DNA of 42,093 bases from Verrucomicrobiota bacterium. GTDB lineage: Bacteria > Verrucomicrobiota > Verrucomicrobiia > Opitutales > JAKPNF01. Below the pieces are notes generated by a model that worked only from the letters and a program-made list of their open reading frames with translations, was not told the DNA's origin and ran no database searches. Both the position numbers and the translations under genes were made by a program. The stretch lies in contig JAKPNF010000146.1 in assembly GCA_029548565.1 (NCBI GenBank), forward strand, positions 1-42,093. The letters run 5' to 3'. This document shows positions 815 to 35,578 of the stretch, piece after piece; position 1 is the first letter of the stretch, and every line of letters starts with the position of its first letter.

Positions 815-979
815 TAGGGTGTGTTTGCAAATTAGGGATTTTGAATGCGCAGTCTGGTTTGGAGGCATTTTTTGGGGCTTCGAGCCGAGTCGATATAAAT
901 ATCGGCGAGGCGAGGACACCGAAAAAGGACCCTAATCCAGGCTGCGCAGGCGAAATTCATAATTTGAAAACACACCCTA
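815..979. mobile_element. MITE-like element copy 1 (165 bp)
   Basis: TAGGGTGTGTTTGCAAATTAGGGATTTTGAATGCGCAG ... CTGCGCAGGCGAAATTCATAATTTGAAAACACACCCTA; imperfect TIRs of about 43 bp; central palindrome CGATATAAATATCG at 891-904; related to 8495-8742 and 28898-29062. Confidence 0.85.
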
Positions 980-7225: not shown

Positions 7226-8497
7226 ATGCATCCTTATATCGAAAAACTCAACGAGTGGCTTGTGGAAAAAAACCTGATCGGCCAGCCCGATTCGATAGTC
7301 GGCAACCTCGTCGTGTTCGCGGCGATTGTCGCGCTGGCGCTGTTCATCCACTTTGTGTTCAAGGGGCTTATTTTAAAGGCGTTCACCCGGCTGGCCGCCC
7401 GCACAAAAACGCGCTTTGACGACATGATCGTCGAGCACAAGCTGCTCGACCGGCTTATCAGCATTATCCCGGCCATCCTGCTGGCCGTGCTGCTGCCGCT
7501 GGCGTTTCCGGAAAAAGATTTCCCGACCCTGCTGCCGCTATTGAGGAAACTGTGCGCCGTCTACGTGCTGTTTGTGGGCATCCGCTTCTTCTATGCGCTG
7601 ATGGACCTGCTGCACGTGGTGTTCTTGCAAAAGAACACCGGCAAACACAAGCCGTTCAAAAGTTTCATTCAGGTGGTGAAGGTCGTGCTGTTTGTACTGG
7701 GGCTTTTGCTGACCGTCAGCATCATGACGGGGGAGCGGCTCAACAGCCTGTTGCTGGGCCTGGGCGCCTCGACCTTGATTCTGACAATGGTCTTTCAGGA
7801 CATGATACGCGGGCTGGTGGCCGGCGTGCAGCTTTCCATTAACGACATGCTGCATATCGGCGACTGGATCACCCTGCCCAAATACGGCGCGGACGGCGAC
7901 GTGATCGACGTGTCGCTGACGGTCGTCAAGGTGCGCAACTTCGACAACACCGTTACCACCATCCCGCCTTACGTGCTGATCTCGGAGTCCTTCCAAAACT
8001 GGCGCGCGATGTCGGACTCCGGCGGGCGACGCATCAAGCGCTCGATCAACATCGATATGCACAGCGTGCATTTTTGCTCGGAGGAAATGCTTAAAAAATT
8101 CCGCAAAATCGCCCTGCTAAAGGATTATATTGACAAAAAGGAGCAGGAACTGCGCGATTACAACGAGCGCCACGACTTGGACGCCTCGGTTTGGGTCAAC
8201 GGACGGCGCCAGACAAACCTGGGCGTTTTTCGCGCCTACATTGAGCGGTACTTAAAACAACACCCCAGCGTCAATCACAACCAGACCTGCATGGTGCGCC
8301 AGTTGCAACCGACCGAAAAGGGCATCCCCATCGAGCTTTACTTTTTCAGCGCCGACGTGCGCTGGATCCCGTATGAAGACTTCCAGTCGGACGTGTTTGA
8401 CCACATCATCGCCATCGTCCCGGAATTCGGCCTGACCGTCTACCAGAACATCTCCGGCGAAGACATCCGCGGGGCGCTTGCGCGCATCAAGGATTAG
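7226..8497 (+). CDS. MscS-family mechanosensitive channel (YbdG-like)
   Basis: LLLGLGASTLILTMVFQDMIRGLVAGVQLSINDMLHIGDWITLPKYGADGDVIDVSLTVVKVRNFDNTVTTIPPYVLISESFQNW. Confidence 0.9.
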   Translation: MHPYIEKLNEWLVEKNLIGQPDSIVGNLVVFAAIVALALFIHFVFKGLILKAFTRLAARTKTRFDDMIVEHKLLDRLISIIPAILLAVLLPLAFPEKDFPTLLPLLRKLCAVYVLFVGIRFFYALMDLLHVVFLQKNTGKHKPFKSFIQVVKVVLFVLGLLLTVSIMTGERLNSLLLGLGASTLILTMVFQDMIRGLVAGVQLSINDMLHIGDWITLPKYGADGDVIDVSLTVVKVRNFDNTVTTIPPYVLISESFQNWRAMSDSGGRRIKRSINIDMHSVHFCSEEMLKKFRKIALLKDYIDKKEQELRDYNERHDLDASVWVNGRRQTNLGVFRAYIERYLKQHPSVNHNQTCMVRQLQPTEKGIPIELYFFSADVRWIPYEDFQSDVFDHIIAIVPEFGLTVYQNISGEDIRGALARIKD

Positions 8498-8742
8498 GGT
8501 GTGTCTTCAAATTAGGGATTTTGAATGTGCGGTCTGGTTTTGAGGCATTTTTTGGGGCTCCGAGCCGAGGCGATGGGATCATCGTCGAGGCGAGGACACC
8601 AAAAAAGAACCATAAAGCGAGCTATTTATAAGCGAGTGGCATGGGCGGGTGCGCAGCACCCAATACGAAGCATTGTTGGCGTTCAGCCAACACCCAAATC
8701 CAAACTGCGCAGGCGGAATTCATAATTTGAAGACACCCCCTA
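8495..8742. mobile_element. MITE-like element copy 2 (248 bp; 83-bp internal insertion)
   Basis: Same ends (TAGGGTGTGTCTTCAAATTAGG...AATTTGAAGACACCCCCTA) and core as copy 1; central stem CGATGGGATCATCG at 8571-8584; extra 8612-8694. Confidence 0.85.
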
Positions 8743-27870: not shown

Positions 27871-28794
27871 ATGTGGAACGAATACGCAGTTGACCCCGAG
27901 TGCCTCATTCCCTCGCGCGACCGCTTCGCGCGGCTGTTTTTCGACTTCAGCTTCGAGCAGGGGCGCCTCATCGCATCCTATCCCGACAACTGGCGCGCGC
28001 GCCTGTACGACAAAATCGAAAGCTCCCCCCTGCGCGATGGCGAAAAAGCCTGGATGCTCGAGCACCTCTCGCGCTCCAAGCAGCGCATGATGCCGCCGGA
28101 CAAGCGCGCGTTTTTCGAGGAGATCCCCTATTTGCAAAATGCGCTGCAATGCCAGGAAAGCGGCCGGCCTTTCCACGCCATCGTCTCCGAGGAAAACCCC
28201 GCAAACGCCCCGCGTGTGTGCCTGGCCACAGAAATTTCCGACGCCGAACCCCTCTGGCGCAGCGACGCCACCATCACCGTCGGGCGCGACGCCGCCGAGC
28301 TTATCCGCCCCGTCGAGCGCCTGCTCAACCACGCCAAGCTCGTCATGCTCATAGACCCCTATTTCGCCACCGCAGACGGCACCCCGCGCGGCCGCTTCCT
28401 GCGTCCCCTTGAGCGCCTGCTCGACGTCCTCGCCGCCCAAAAACGCTTCCCCGATCGCCTCGAATACCACAGCAACGCCGCCAACATCCGCACCTCCCTA
28501 AGCAAATTCAAACAACGCATGCGCGAAGGCCTCGCCCCCCTGCTGCGCCCCGGGCAATTCATCGATTTCGTCGGCTGGAAACCCCGCAAAAGCGACCGCC
28601 GCCAAGCCTTCCACGACCGCTACATCGTCACCGACCTGGCCGGCGCCGGGTACACCTACGGCCTCGACGACGGCCCCGAAGGCGAAACCACCGGCGTCCA
28701 ACGCCTCTCCTCCCAAGACCACACCCGCGTGCTCGACGACTTCTCCCTGCGCTCCCAAACCTACGACCTCATCCTACGCTTCCGCGTAGGATGA
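27871..28794 (+). CDS. PLD-like protein (single HxR-x4-D motif), co-directional with ATPase
   Basis: KLVMLIDPYFATADG then QAFHDRYIVTDLAGAGYTYG; starts 3 bp after the ATPase stop codon. Confidence 0.6.
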   Translation: MWNEYAVDPECLIPSRDRFARLFFDFSFEQGRLIASYPDNWRARLYDKIESSPLRDGEKAWMLEHLSRSKQRMMPPDKRAFFEEIPYLQNALQCQESGRPFHAIVSEENPANAPRVCLATEISDAEPLWRSDATITVGRDAAELIRPVERLLNHAKLVMLIDPYFATADGTPRGRFLRPLERLLDVLAAQKRFPDRLEYHSNAANIRTSLSKFKQRMREGLAPLLRPGQFIDFVGWKPRKSDRRQAFHDRYIVTDLAGAGYTYGLDDGPEGETTGVQRLSSQDHTRVLDDFSLRSQTYDLILRFRVG

Positions 28795-28838
28795 GGAGGA
28801 AGGAGAAAAAAAGGGAGAGTAGAAGGAATTAAAAAAAT

Positions 28839-28897
28839 GCGGGGAAAACTTTTTTAAAATAAAAAAAGTCTTCCCCGCACCCCTTTCAAAAAAATTT
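28839..28897 (+). repeat. Two-hairpin repeat copy b, H1 plus linker (H2 displaced to 29063-29082 by MITE copy 3)
   Basis: GCGGGGAAAACTTTTTT-aaaat-AAAAAAAGTCTTCCCCGC + ACCCCTTTCAAAAAAATTTT. Confidence 0.8.
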
Positions 28898-29062
28898 TAG
28901 GGTGTGTTTTCGAATTAGGGATTTTGAATGCGCGGGCTGGCTTGGAGGCATTTTTTGGGGCTTCGAGCCGAGGCGATATTTATATCGTCGAGGCGAGGAC
29001 ACCAAAAAAGGACCCAAGTCCAGACTGTGCAGGCGAAATTCATAATTCGAAAATGCACCCTA
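28898..29062. mobile_element. MITE-like element copy 3 (165 bp)
   Basis: TAGGGTGTGTTTTCGAATTAGGGATTTTGAATGCGCGGG...TGTGCAGGCGAAATTCATAATTCGAAAATGCACCCTA; central stem CGATATTTATATCG at 28974-28987. Confidence 0.88.
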
Positions 29063-29082
29063 GGACGGATGCTGGCGCATCC
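29063..29082 (+). repeat. H2 hairpin of two-hairpin repeat copy b
   Basis: GGAC-GGATGC-tggc-GCATCC, aligning with ACGAC-GGGTGC-tgc-GCACCC in the 33493 copy. Confidence 0.65.
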
Positions 29083-29539: not shown

Positions 29540-29629
29540 TTCGGGTGCGCAGCACCCGTCGTAAAAGTTTTTTGGGAAAGGGGGCGCGGGGGAAAGCCCT
29601 TTTTTTTCAAAAAAGGGTTTTCCCCGCAT
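29540..29629 (-). repeat. Two-hairpin repeat copy c (minus orientation)
   Basis: H1 29586-29627 and H2 CGGGTGCGCAGCACCCG 29542-29558, joined by GTCGTAAAAGTTTTTTGGGAAAGGGGGC; reverse complement closely matches 33493-33575. Confidence 0.88.
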
Positions 29630-29664
29630 CCATCATCCTTCCCTAATCCAAAACATTTCCTTCC

Positions 29665-30750
29665 CTACTTATGCAAGGGCGGCTTAGATAAAACGAGCGG
29701 GATGGCTTGGCCGCGCACGAGTACGCCTAGGGGTTTGTCGAAGGCGTCGCTGTTGACCAGCGCGCTGCCGATGGGTTGGTTGGTTACGGGGGAGAGAGTG
29801 CCGGAGCAGACTTGGCCGACGGTGTTGTTTTCGTGAACGATTTCCATGCCTTGGCGGGCGATGCGGCGGTCGGTTAGTTTGAAGAAGACGAGGCGTTGTT
29901 TCGAACCTTGTTGTTTTTCTTGCTGAAGCGCGGAGCGGCCGATGAAGTCGCCTTTGTCGAGTTTGACGACCCAGCCTAGTCCGGCGGTCAAGGGGGTAAT
30001 GGCGTCGGAAATTTCGTGGCCGTAGAGCGGGTAGCCGGCCTCCAGACGCAGGGAGTCGCGCGCGCCCAGACCGACGGGCAGGAGCCCTTTGGGGGCGCCG
30101 GCGGCGATGATTTGCTCGGCGATTTTTTCGGCGGCGGCGGCAGGGATGTAGAGTTCTAGGCCGTCTTCACCGGTGTAGCCGGTGCGGCTGAAAAGGACGG
30201 GGACGCCCGCACAGGTGCCTTGGGCGAAATGAAAGCGCTTGATCGCGGACAGGTCGATGTCGGAAATTTGCTGCAGGATCTCAATGGCTAGAGGGCCTTG
30301 AACCGCGAGCTGCGCCCATTGCGTTGTCTCGTCGGTGACGGTGCAGTTTTCGCAATGTGCTTTGAGCCAGGCGACGTCTTTTTGCGCGTTGCCTGCGTTC
30401 AGGCAAATAAAAAATTCCTGCTCGGTCATGCGGTAGACGATCACGTCGTCCACGACCGTGCCGTTGTCGTAGCACATCAGGCTGTAGCGCGCGGCGCCGA
30501 TGGGCAGGTCGGCCATCTTGTTGGTCATTATTTTTTCGAGCGAAGCGAGCGCACCTGGGCCGCTGACACGCGCTTCGCCCATGTGGCTGACGTCAAAGAG
30601 CCCCGCCGCCTGGCGCGTGGCCTTGTGTTCGGCGATGATGCCCGAATACTGCACGGGCATTTCCCAGCCCGCAAACTCCACGATACGGGCGCCGTGGCGG
30701 ATGTGAAAGTCGTACAGCGGCGTGCGCCGCGATTGGGATGGTTCGGACAT
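29665..30750 (-). CDS. gcvT: Glycine cleavage system aminomethyltransferase (T protein)
   Basis: RRTPLYDFHIRHGARIVEFAGWEMPVQYSGIIAEHKATRQAAGLFDVSHMGE, SRTGYTGEDGLELYIP. Confidence 0.96.
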   Translation of the reverse strand: MSEPSQSRRTPLYDFHIRHGARIVEFAGWEMPVQYSGIIAEHKATRQAAGLFDVSHMGEARVSGPGALASLEKIMTNKMADLPIGAARYSLMCYDNGTVVDDVIVYRMTEQEFFICLNAGNAQKDVAWLKAHCENCTVTDETTQWAQLAVQGPLAIEILQQISDIDLSAIKRFHFAQGTCAGVPVLFSRTGYTGEDGLELYIPAAAAEKIAEQIIAAGAPKGLLPVGLGARDSLRLEAGYPLYGHEISDAITPLTAGLGWVVKLDKGDFIGRSALQQEKQQGSKQRLVFFKLTDRRIARQGMEIVHENNTVGQVCSGTLSPVTNQPIGSALVNSDAFDKPLGVLVRGQAIPLVLSKPPLHK

Positions 30751-32634: not shown

Positions 32635-33486
32635 ATGTTTTCCTCTCTCGCCTACTGGGTGCACAACCTCGACCCCTTTGTGGTACGCTTCCCCGACGGC
32701 TGGCCGACCGACGGCATCCGCTGGTACGGCCTAGCCTACCTCATGGGCTTTCTCGTCGGCTGGGCGCTCCTGCATCTCTATTACAAAAAAGGCCGCTCGC
32801 CCCTAAACCTCGAAGCGCAGGCCAACCTCATGACTTACCTCATCCTCGGCGTGCTCGTCGGCGGACGGCTGGGTTATTGTCTGCTCTACGCGTTGCCCGA
32901 ATGGAGCCGCGACCCGCTGCTCATCCTGCGCGTCTGGGAAGGCGGCATGGCCAGCCATGGTGGCTTTCTAGGCGTCATCATCGCCCTCATAATCTTCGCA
33001 AAACGCAACCACCTGCCCTTCACCGCGCTGGGCGACATCGTCGTCACCCTCGTCCCCCCCGGCCTGCTCTTCGGCCGCATCGCCAATTTCATCAACGGCG
33101 AACTCTGGGGCAAACTCAGCGACGCCCCCTGGGCCGTCATCTTCCCCAAAAGCGCCCCCCCCGGCATCCCCGTAGAATTCATCGCCGCCCGCCACCCCTC
33201 CCAACTCTACGAAGCCCTCCTCGAAGGCCTCCTGCTCCTAATCCTAACCCAGTGGCTCTTCTGGCGCAAAAACCCCAGCACCCCCCACAACGGCCAACTC
33301 TCCGGCATCTTCCTGATCACTTACGCCCTCGTGCGCATCCTGTGCGAATGCTTCCGCGAACCAGACGCCACTCTCATCCTCGGCCTAAGCCGCGGCACGT
33401 TTTATTCGTTGTTTTTAATTTTATTGGGCGCGCTGTTTATTTGGAACGCGTGGCGGCACGGTAAGAAGGGAAAGAGTTTTGGATGA
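32635..33486 (+). CDS. lgt: Prolipoprotein diacylglyceryl transferase
   Basis: IRWYGLAYLMGFLVGW, VGGRLGYCL, GGMASHGGFLG, LLFGRIANFINGELWG, RHPSQLYEALLEG, LCECFREPD. Confidence 0.95.
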   Translation: MFSSLAYWVHNLDPFVVRFPDGWPTDGIRWYGLAYLMGFLVGWALLHLYYKKGRSPLNLEAQANLMTYLILGVLVGGRLGYCLLYALPEWSRDPLLILRVWEGGMASHGGFLGVIIALIIFAKRNHLPFTALGDIVVTLVPPGLLFGRIANFINGELWGKLSDAPWAVIFPKSAPPGIPVEFIAARHPSQLYEALLEGLLLLILTQWLFWRKNPSTPHNGQLSGIFLITYALVRILCECFREPDATLILGLSRGTFYSLFLILLGALFIWNAWRHGKKGKSFG

Positions 33487-33492
33487 GTGGAT

Positions 33493-33591
33493 GCGGGGAA
33501 AACCTTTTTTTGAAAAAAAAGGTCTTCCCCGCGCCCCTTTCCCAAAAAACTTTTACGACGGGTGCTGCGCACCCGAAACCACGGTGCACTG
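33493..33591 (+). repeat. Two-hairpin repeat copy d (plus orientation)
   Basis: H1 GCGGGGAAAACCTTTTTTTGAAAAAAAAGGTCTTCCCCGC 33493-33532; linker GCCCCTTTCCCAAAAAACTTTTACGA; H2 CGGGTGC-tgc-GCACCCG 33559-33575; then GGTGCACTG 33583-33591. Confidence 0.9.
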
Positions 33592-33630: not shown

Positions 33631-33740
33631 CAGTGCACCCGCACGAACTTTCAGATGCGCAGCATCTGTCACAAAAGTTTTTTCGGGAAGGGGGGCGCGG
33701 GGGGAAACCCGTTTTTTCCAAAAAACGGGTTTCCCCCCGC
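33631..33740 (-). repeat. Two-hairpin repeat copy e (minus orientation; head-to-head with copy d)
   Basis: CAGTGCACC 33631-33639; H2 CAGATGC-gca-GCATCTG 33652-33668; H1 perfect 21-bp stem GCGGGGGGAAACCCGTTTTTT-cc-AAAAAACGGGTTTCCCCCCGC 33697-33740. Confidence 0.9.
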
Positions 33741-33790
33741 ATCCTCATCATCCTTCCTCCCCGAAAAAATCTTACCCGTGCTTTTGCACC

Positions 33791-34720
33791 CTACAGGTCG
33801 GTCTTCTTAAAATATTCGATCGTTTTGGCGAGTCCTTCTTCGAGCGAAATTTTGGGTTCCCAGTTGATGATTTTTTTAGCCAGGGAGATGTCGGGGCGGC
33901 GTTGTTTGGGGTCGTCGGCGGGGAGGGGCTTGTGGGTGATTTTGGATTTTGTGCCGGTGAGTTTGATGACGAGTTGGGCGAGTTCGAGCATGGTGAATTC
34001 GCCGGGGTTGCCGATGTTGACGGGGCCGGTTGTTTGGGTCTGCTCCATCATTTTGACGAAGGCCTCAATGAGGTCGTCGACGTAGCAGAAGGAGCGGGTT
34101 TGGGAGCCGTCGCCGTAAATGGTGATGTCCTCGCCCTTGAGGGCCTGGACGATGAAGTTGGAAACGACGCGGCCGTCGTTGGCGAGCATGCGGGGGCCGT
34201 AGGTGTTGAAGATGCGCACCAGGCGGATGTCGACGCCGTTCATGCGGTGGTAGTCGAAAAAGAGGGTCTCGGCGACGCGCTTGCCCTCGTCGTAGCAGGA
34301 GCGAATGCCGATGGGGTTGACGTTGCCCCAGTAGCTTTCGGGCTGGGGGTGCACCTGCGGGTCGCCATAGACTTCGGAGGTGGATGCCTGCAAGATGCGC
34401 GCGCCGGTGCGCTTGGCCAGGCCGAGCGAATTGATGGCGCCCATGACGGATGTTTTGATGGTCTTGATTGCGTTGTGCTGGTAATGCACGGGCGAGGCCG
34501 GGCACGCCAGGTTGTAGATGCGGTCGACCTCGGCCTTGAAGGGGTCGACCACGTCGTGCCGCACAAATTCGAAACGCGGGTTGTTCAAAAACGGCAGCAG
34601 GTTGTCCTTGCGGCCGGTGAACAAATTATCCACGCAGACGACCTCGTGCCCCTGCTCCAGCAGTTTTTCGCAAAGGTGGCTGCCCAAAAATCCGGCTCCT
34701 CCGGTGACTAAAATGCGCAT
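33791..34720 (-). CDS. UDP-glucuronate decarboxylase (UDP-xylose synthase-like SDR)
   Basis: [89 protein letters not shown]. Confidence 0.93.
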
Positions 34721-34828
34721 AGCTTCTTTTAAAGGATTTTGAGCAACAAGGAAATGAAAAACGCCACGCGGCGCGGCGGCCTGCAATTTTGCTCGAAAGC
34801 GCTTCCAAAGCGTTTTATCGTTTTGGTA

Positions 34829-35578
34829 ATGCAAACAACGAGCGCCACTGTTGTCATTCCCGCGCGCCTGGCCTCCACGCGGCTGCCGCGCAAAGTCCTG
34901 CTGGATCTGGGCGGCAAACCTGTCATCCAGCATGTTTGGGAAAAGGTCTCGCAAATGAAACGCGCCCGCGCGGTCGTGATCGCGACGGACAGCGACGAGG
35001 TTGTGGCCGCCGCCAAGGCCTTCGGCGCCGACGTGCGGCTGACCTCGCCGCAGTGCCGCAACGGCACGGAACGCCTCGTTGAACTGATGCAAGGCGGGCT
35101 GGAAGGCGACTTCTTTTTAAACGTGCAGGGCGACGAACCGTTCATCGCCCCTGTCCTGCTCGACTCGCTTGTCTTGCGCCGCGAGCAAACCGCTTGCGAT
35201 TTGGTCACCGCCGTCTACGCGATCAAAGAGGCGAAGCAGTTGCAAGACCCCAACCTCGTGAAAGTCGCGCGGGCGCAGGACGGGCACGCGATTTATTTTT
35301 CGCGCTCGCCGATTCCCTACCTGCGCGGCGAACCGATCGAGTCGTGGTGCCAAAAGCGCCCGTACTGGGGGCACCTGGGCGTGTACGGCTACTCGCGCAA
35401 GGCGCTGGAAATTTATCCGACGCTGGAAATCGGCGGTGTTGAAAGCGCCGAGTCGCTCGAACAGTTACGCTTTTTGGAAAAGAACATGAGCTTTCAAACA
35501 GTCGAAACCGACTACCACGCCGTGGCCATCGACACGCCCGAGGATCTCGAGCACGCCCGCGCCCTTTTGAACAAATAA
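34829..35578 (+). CDS. kdsB: 3-deoxy-manno-octulosonate cytidylyltransferase
   Basis: [59 protein letters not shown]. Start set at MQTTSATVV. Confidence 0.93.

Follow-up and report, generated by a model that had tools for sequence, protein, structure and literature searches.

How did a miniature inverted-repeat transposable element (MITE) come to lie within a repeat that stands at gene ends, and what kind of repeat did it enter? The question is raised by positions 28,839 to 29,082 of the 42,093-nucleotide stretch analysed here (the window; contig C15 of a draft genome of 2.14 Mb in 170 contigs, 97% complete; C numbers denote contigs of this genome, L numbers the loci we read). The first-pass annotation had described this region as a third MITE copy nested in a two-hairpin repeat and had taken it as direct evidence of mobility and TA duplication. 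The observation is correct. Hairpin A of the repeat, GCGGGGAAAAC-T6...A7-GTCTTCCCCGC, occupies 28837-28879 on the + strand, about 43 nt after the stop codon of the + strand gene 27871-28794, and is followed by the tail CCCCTTTCAAAAAAATTTTA at 28880-28899, whose last two letters, 28898-28899, are the left TA of the target-site duplication. The MITE proper, GGGTGTG...TGCACCC, is 161 bp long (28900-29060, + strand) and its imperfect terminal inverted repeats pair over about 60 nt. It is followed by the right TA at 29061-29062 and by the far half of the interrupted repeat at 29063-29082, consisting of GGAC (29063-29066) and hairpin B, GGATGCTGGCGCATCC (29067-29082).

Deletion of 28898-29060 leaves one TA and restores TTTTAGGACGGATGCTGGCGCATCC (...CAAAAAAATTTTAGGACGGATGCTGGCGCATCC), that is, the junction TTTTAGGAC-GGATGCTGGCGCATCC. 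The junction of TTTTAGGAC with a GGATGC hairpin exists uninterrupted at C2:1691, C69:5589 and C107:16137 of the same genome, while TTTTATGAC is the commoner form and is found in many further copies. The intact copy with which the first-pass annotation had made its comparison lies at 33534-33574. The genome holds at least 18 full or near-full MITE copies plus fragments, and at least 43 two-hairpin repeats, so chance is excluded. The annotation had itself named the condition that would overturn its reading, namely that the second hairpin always belongs to the flank of the MITE rather than to the repeat. We examined this and found that it does not hold, as GACGGATGCTGGCGCATCCT occurs 21 times exactly and 17 of these copies lie in repeats without a MITE, with only four flanking one. 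The interpretation is supported, and insertion of a MITE into a pre-existing repeat with TA duplication is the simplest reading, although the empty site is represented by paralogous copies and not by an orthologous locus. A search of genome contigs with the ATPase gave no relatives, and the MITE was found in none of the other 69 order-relative genomes searched, none of which is of the same family. The annotation missed that the event recurred at the same position and that the host is not a plain two-hairpin repeat.

Five MITEs lie in the repeat, at C15, C106, C6, C51 and C49, each between the tail and hairpin B, each in the same orientation, and in every one the tail and hairpin A stay intact. 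At C106 the junctions are perfect for a TTTTATGAC target and at C15 and C6 for TTTTAGGAC, whereas the right TA of C51 has become TG and C49 is degenerate. In the MITE tree, C15, C106, C6 and C51 form one clade (support 86/86) and are 92-96% identical, while C49 lies elsewhere. If a composite had spread, the host hairpins of the four should be as alike as their MITEs. They are not, as their mean identity is 0.81, the same as that of random sets of four empty copies (P=0.49), and each is closest to an empty copy at 0.90-0.95. Independent insertions into different copies are therefore favoured. With roughly 4,400 intergenic TA estimated from the window and 60-100 repeat sites, five of 18 by chance has a P of 4e-6 to 4e-5, which is a rough estimate. 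The shared orientation (about 1 in 16 by chance) is unexplained.

The element has the features of a MITE, being short, with terminal inverted repeats, many dispersed copies, and TA on both sides in the window copy and in most others, the empty paralogues keeping one TA. Duplication of TA fits IS630/Tc1-mariner-like transposition, and some IS5-group elements as well. However, profile searches of the genome gave 0 matches to DDE_3 (PF13358), the partner expected of an IS630/Tc1-mariner-mobilised MITE, and 0 matches to PF13340, the partner expected of an IS5/IS427-mobilised one. The Y1 transposase that moves REP elements (PF01797), expected of a REP/RAYT system for the two-hairpin repeat, also gave 0 matches. 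The source of the MITE is unknown; an element lost or not assembled is the likely reason, and this is an inference. Bacterial MITEs with TA duplication mobilised by Tc1/mariner-like IS630 elements, such as Correia elements and RUP, are likewise short and non-coding, with long terminal inverted repeats and many copies, but the present ends, GGGTGTGTTTTC..., were not matched to a named family. Insertion of IS elements into REP sequences has been described (PMC1525189), and there too a mobile element repeatedly uses a short extragenic repeat as target. In the present case the target is the joint between a long triplex-like hairpin and a small hairpin, and the inserter is a MITE with a TA target.

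The host repeat proved to be the larger surprise. Copies in this genome lie on the sense strand after genes; in 45 of 48 the upstream gene is on the same strand, and hairpin A mostly starts 5-46 nt (median 22) after its stop codon. In the window, besides the interrupted copy, an uninterrupted repeat at 33491-33574 (+) directly follows the stop codon of lgt (32635-33486), another at 29543-29632 (-) follows that of gcvT (29665-30750, - strand), and a diverged one at 33649-33744 (-) follows that of the - strand ORF 33791-35092. The tail after hairpin A copies the 5' arm block by block, so that G(n)A(m)C(k)T(j) in the arm becomes C(n)T(m-1)C(k)A(j) in the tail; in the interrupted copy G4 A4 C1 T6 becomes C4 T3 C1 A7. 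A pattern built on this rule hit at least 113 stretches in GTDB contigs, in Clostridia (Oscillospiraceae, Ruminococcus, Defluviitaleaceae), Desulfovibrionaceae, Desulfobacterales, Desulfarculus and Desulfocarbo. One narrow pattern gave 33 copies in this genome and 159 in one goat-cecum Clostridia genome (G273), and the same pattern read backwards gave none in any of ten genomes. In a second genome, Ruminococcus RUG14840 (G280), the 57 pattern hits (L153, L174, L180 and others) often share loop and tail sequence and look like a dispersed repeat family, unlike the diverse copies in G273. The first tail block is exactly one shorter than the stem block in 41 of 43 own and 105 of 129 foreign copies, and the k block is equal in 36 of 43 and 121 of 129; the pattern allowed 0-6 extra bases there, so it does not force this. 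A further parse of the pattern hits divided the linker wrongly and is usable for its k-block agreement only. A first orientation test for foreign genomes, based on ORFs, was confounded by stop-to-stop frames and was replaced by a start-to-stop test, in which 56 of 94 loci had a same-strand gene upstream versus 15 of 94 with an opposite one, with shifted controls at 1-6.

We next asked whether the relation holds base by base. A covariance model found matches in 52 of 288 genomes of the phylum, often many per genome and above all in one family (f38), and sixty of these regions were read. Membership of the present genome in Verrucomicrobiota was inferred from gene content and was not tested. Several of the regions read have non-homopolymer stems and still match. 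For instance, L277 has the stem GGGGAGAGAGAAAAC with the tail CCCCTCTCTCTTTC (GAGAGAGAAAAC against CTCTCTCTTTC), and L318 has the stem GGGAGCGGGGAAAAC-TTCTTTT with the tail CCCTCACCCCTTTC-AAGAAAA; L321, L323 and L311 behave similarly. In several genomes of the phylum (L258, L260, L264) the tail is followed by a second palindrome-rich repeat (GGAATTGCTTTTAT...ATAAAAGCAATTCC), a different partner from hairpin B of this genome. With a scoring that leaves C unscored, true tails scored above every one of 5000 tail swaps in the own (n=31), foreign (n=109) and phylum (n=33) sets and clearly above the reversed arm. Copies within one genome are related, so these P values are not exact and overstate independence. 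The tallies are G>C, A>T, T>A and, left unscored, C>C over C>G (41 to 5 in the own set). In addition, the end of the tail is complementary to the apical loop more often than in 2000 permutations, as in CTCGG/CCGA, CAGAGG/CCTCT and GGTGCCCC/GGGC.

The register is parallel, and antiparallel and identical controls score lower, so ordinary Watson-Crick pairing of tail and stem was rejected. Read on the complementary (template) strand every common triplet is canonical: the third base is G over G:C and A (sometimes T) over A:T, antiparallel, across the purine block, and beyond the purine-pyrimidine switch it is G (or C, as C+.GC) over C:G and T over T:A, parallel (triplet rules as summarised in PMC4666352). 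This describes an alternate-strand intramolecular triplex on the template strand, capped by loop-tail pairing, with the tail as the proposed third strand. On the sense strand the first block would also work (C+.GC, T.AT), but the C over C:G and A over A:T positions would not. The position omitted at the switch fits designed alternate-strand triplexes, a correspondence that was not tested here. C+ triplets need low pH, and formation of the triple helix is inferred from covariation only, no chemical or structural measurements having been made.

Bacterial intrastrand triplex motifs (TM, defined by the program ITxF; PMC4666352, with the PIT elements cited there) share the principle that one strand folds back twice so that a third block lies on a hairpin, and they too are intergenic and occur in many copies per genome. 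They are described as having one purine strand, as showing no strand bias in E. coli and as linked with rearrangement. The present element satisfies the triplet rules by the covariation and permutation tests, but it fails the published definition of three blocks of 6-15 nt separated by loops of 1-6 nt; the first linker is about 3 nt, yet the two arms of the first block are separated by the whole C/T...A/G apical hairpin, longer than 6 nt. This was reasoned from the definition, the program itself not being run. The element further differs in that the third strand changes purine partner strand midway with one position missing, and in its strong sense orientation after stop codons. Like an intrinsic (Rho-independent) terminator it has a strong hairpin within a few dozen nt after the stop codon, but the sense tail is CCCCTTTC-A7, C-rich then A-rich and not a T tract, and a terminator scan calls hairpin A of the interrupted copy only on the opposite strand. 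H-type pseudoknots with triple helices have similar loop-tail pairing, with the connecting strand running along stem 1, whereas here the third strand is very long, with a stem-wide register and a strand switch. Rfam 15 has no match in the window at gathering score, and permissive scans of window and foreign loci gave only sub-threshold, microRNA-like chance matches. No paper was found on alternate-strand triplex elements in bacteria or on the sequence itself, in a literature search of incomplete coverage that does not exclude an earlier description, and the class is apparently undescribed.

We propose, with a probability of roughly 0.6, that a non-autonomous TA-targeting DNA transposon was mobilised in trans and inserted into the TA just 3' of an existing gene-end element, the target TA being copied. 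The sequence itself demonstrates the junctions, the TA on both sides, the empty paralogues and the five insertions at the same TA of different repeat copies, and, for the host element, the stem-tail covariation, the loop-tail complementarity, the sense orientation just after stop codons and the occurrence in several phyla. We infer from these that the insertions were independent, that a DDE transposase now lost or unrecognised was responsible, and that the tail lies as a third strand along the hairpin (a G/A block, a short C block and a T block, followed in this genome by a small second hairpin). Least certain is that the element stops or pauses RNA polymerase at gene ends; no expression data support termination. 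In this view the MITE, sitting exactly after the tail, leaves the structure whole, which would explain why such insertions survive. The MITE insertion is a clean but ordinary case of nesting, with the twist of repeated use of one site. The host repeat matters more, since the biological role of the known intrastrand triplex motifs is open, and here stem-tail compensatory changes across phyla, orientation at gene ends and very high copy number occur in groups with culturable members, so that both triplex formation and a role in transcription ending can be tested directly. A bolder reading, which remains tentative, is that a natural class of alternate-strand intramolecular DNA triplexes, in tens to more than a hundred copies per genome in Verrucomicrobiota-like bacteria, Clostridia and sulfate reducers, marks gene 3' ends and acts as a transcription boundary, that its register rule of one omitted third-strand position is kept by evolution, and that mobile elements use its edge as a landing site.

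Other explanations were weighed against this proposal. A single insertion followed by spread of hairpin A, MITE and hairpin B as a unit is unlikely but not without support, given the one clade of four MITEs, the shared orientation, the same GGATGCTGGCGCATCC variant in those four and the rarer GGAC spacer in three of them. Against it, their hairpin A parts are of four different subtypes, no more alike than random empty copies, and the fifth MITE lies elsewhere in the tree; a G after TA is also common at other MITE sites, so the GGAC excess can reflect target preference. It is possible, though we hold it tentatively, that the repeated use of one TA is mere tolerance, insertions elsewhere being lost to selection and the transposase having no preference for the repeat. 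Sites just downstream of a gene end are harmless, and the host structure stays intact in every nested copy, but about 13 other full or near-full MITE copies lie elsewhere, so other sites are tolerated too, and the roughly estimated excess at the repeat is large.

With regard to the host repeat, the tail could act on the RNA, hairpin A plus tail being an H-type pseudoknot of the mRNA 3' end, with the tail in a groove of the stem and its end paired to the loop, protecting or terminating the transcript. The sense orientation after stop codons and the Watson-Crick loop-tail complementarity agree with this, and C over G and U over A in the first block are normal RNA major-groove triples. This reading is not excluded but is doubtful, because on the sense strand the k block (C over C:G) and the A over A:U positions (ATCTT tails in L260 and L295; AACA in L276) are not standard triples, whereas the template strand gives standard triplets at all of them. 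Least likely is that there is no third strand, the tail reflecting only inheritance of a few subfamilies with low-complexity blocks in an ordinary hairpin terminator or REP-like repeat. Own copies do fall into subfamilies, homopolymer runs make chance register matches easy, and swapped tails also score fairly high. However, the same relation holds across phyla with different stems, including non-homopolymer ones (GAGAGAG/CTCTCTC, GGGAGCGGGG/CCCTCACCCC, TTCTTTT/AAGAAAA), true pairs beat all swaps in three separate sets, and the reversed pattern gives 0 hits.

The remaining MITE copies show further variation. Copy 1 of the window (815-979, +) has both TA and is not inside a two-hairpin repeat, while copy 2 (8495-8742, +) carries an extra block of about 80 nt between 8611 and 8692. 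The same block, with small hairpins (GGGTGCGCAGCACCC, GATGCGAAGCATT, TTGGCGTTCAGCCAA), is present at the same internal place in three MITE copies (C15:8495, C108:7772, C135:23836; window 8611-8692, L014 and L016), and the first of these hairpins is the reverse complement of a hairpin-B variant. At L098 (C83:13511) hairpin A of a two-hairpin repeat is split by a block of small hairpins including GGGTGCTGCGCACCC, a second kind of insertion into the repeat. Solitary MITE-end-like motifs, TAGGGTGTGTTTTCAAATTA, lie directly upstream of the start codons of an apparent sigma factor, an lpxC-fabZ-like fusion and another gene (L103, C154:4914; L101, C87:13948; L116, C37:2727), and may be relics of MITE ends or a promoter motif. 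At L108 (C92:41381) a mini version of about 42 nt, TAGGCTGTGTTTTCAAATTAGGGTTTTAAAAACACAGCCTAG, is made of little more than two MITE ends.
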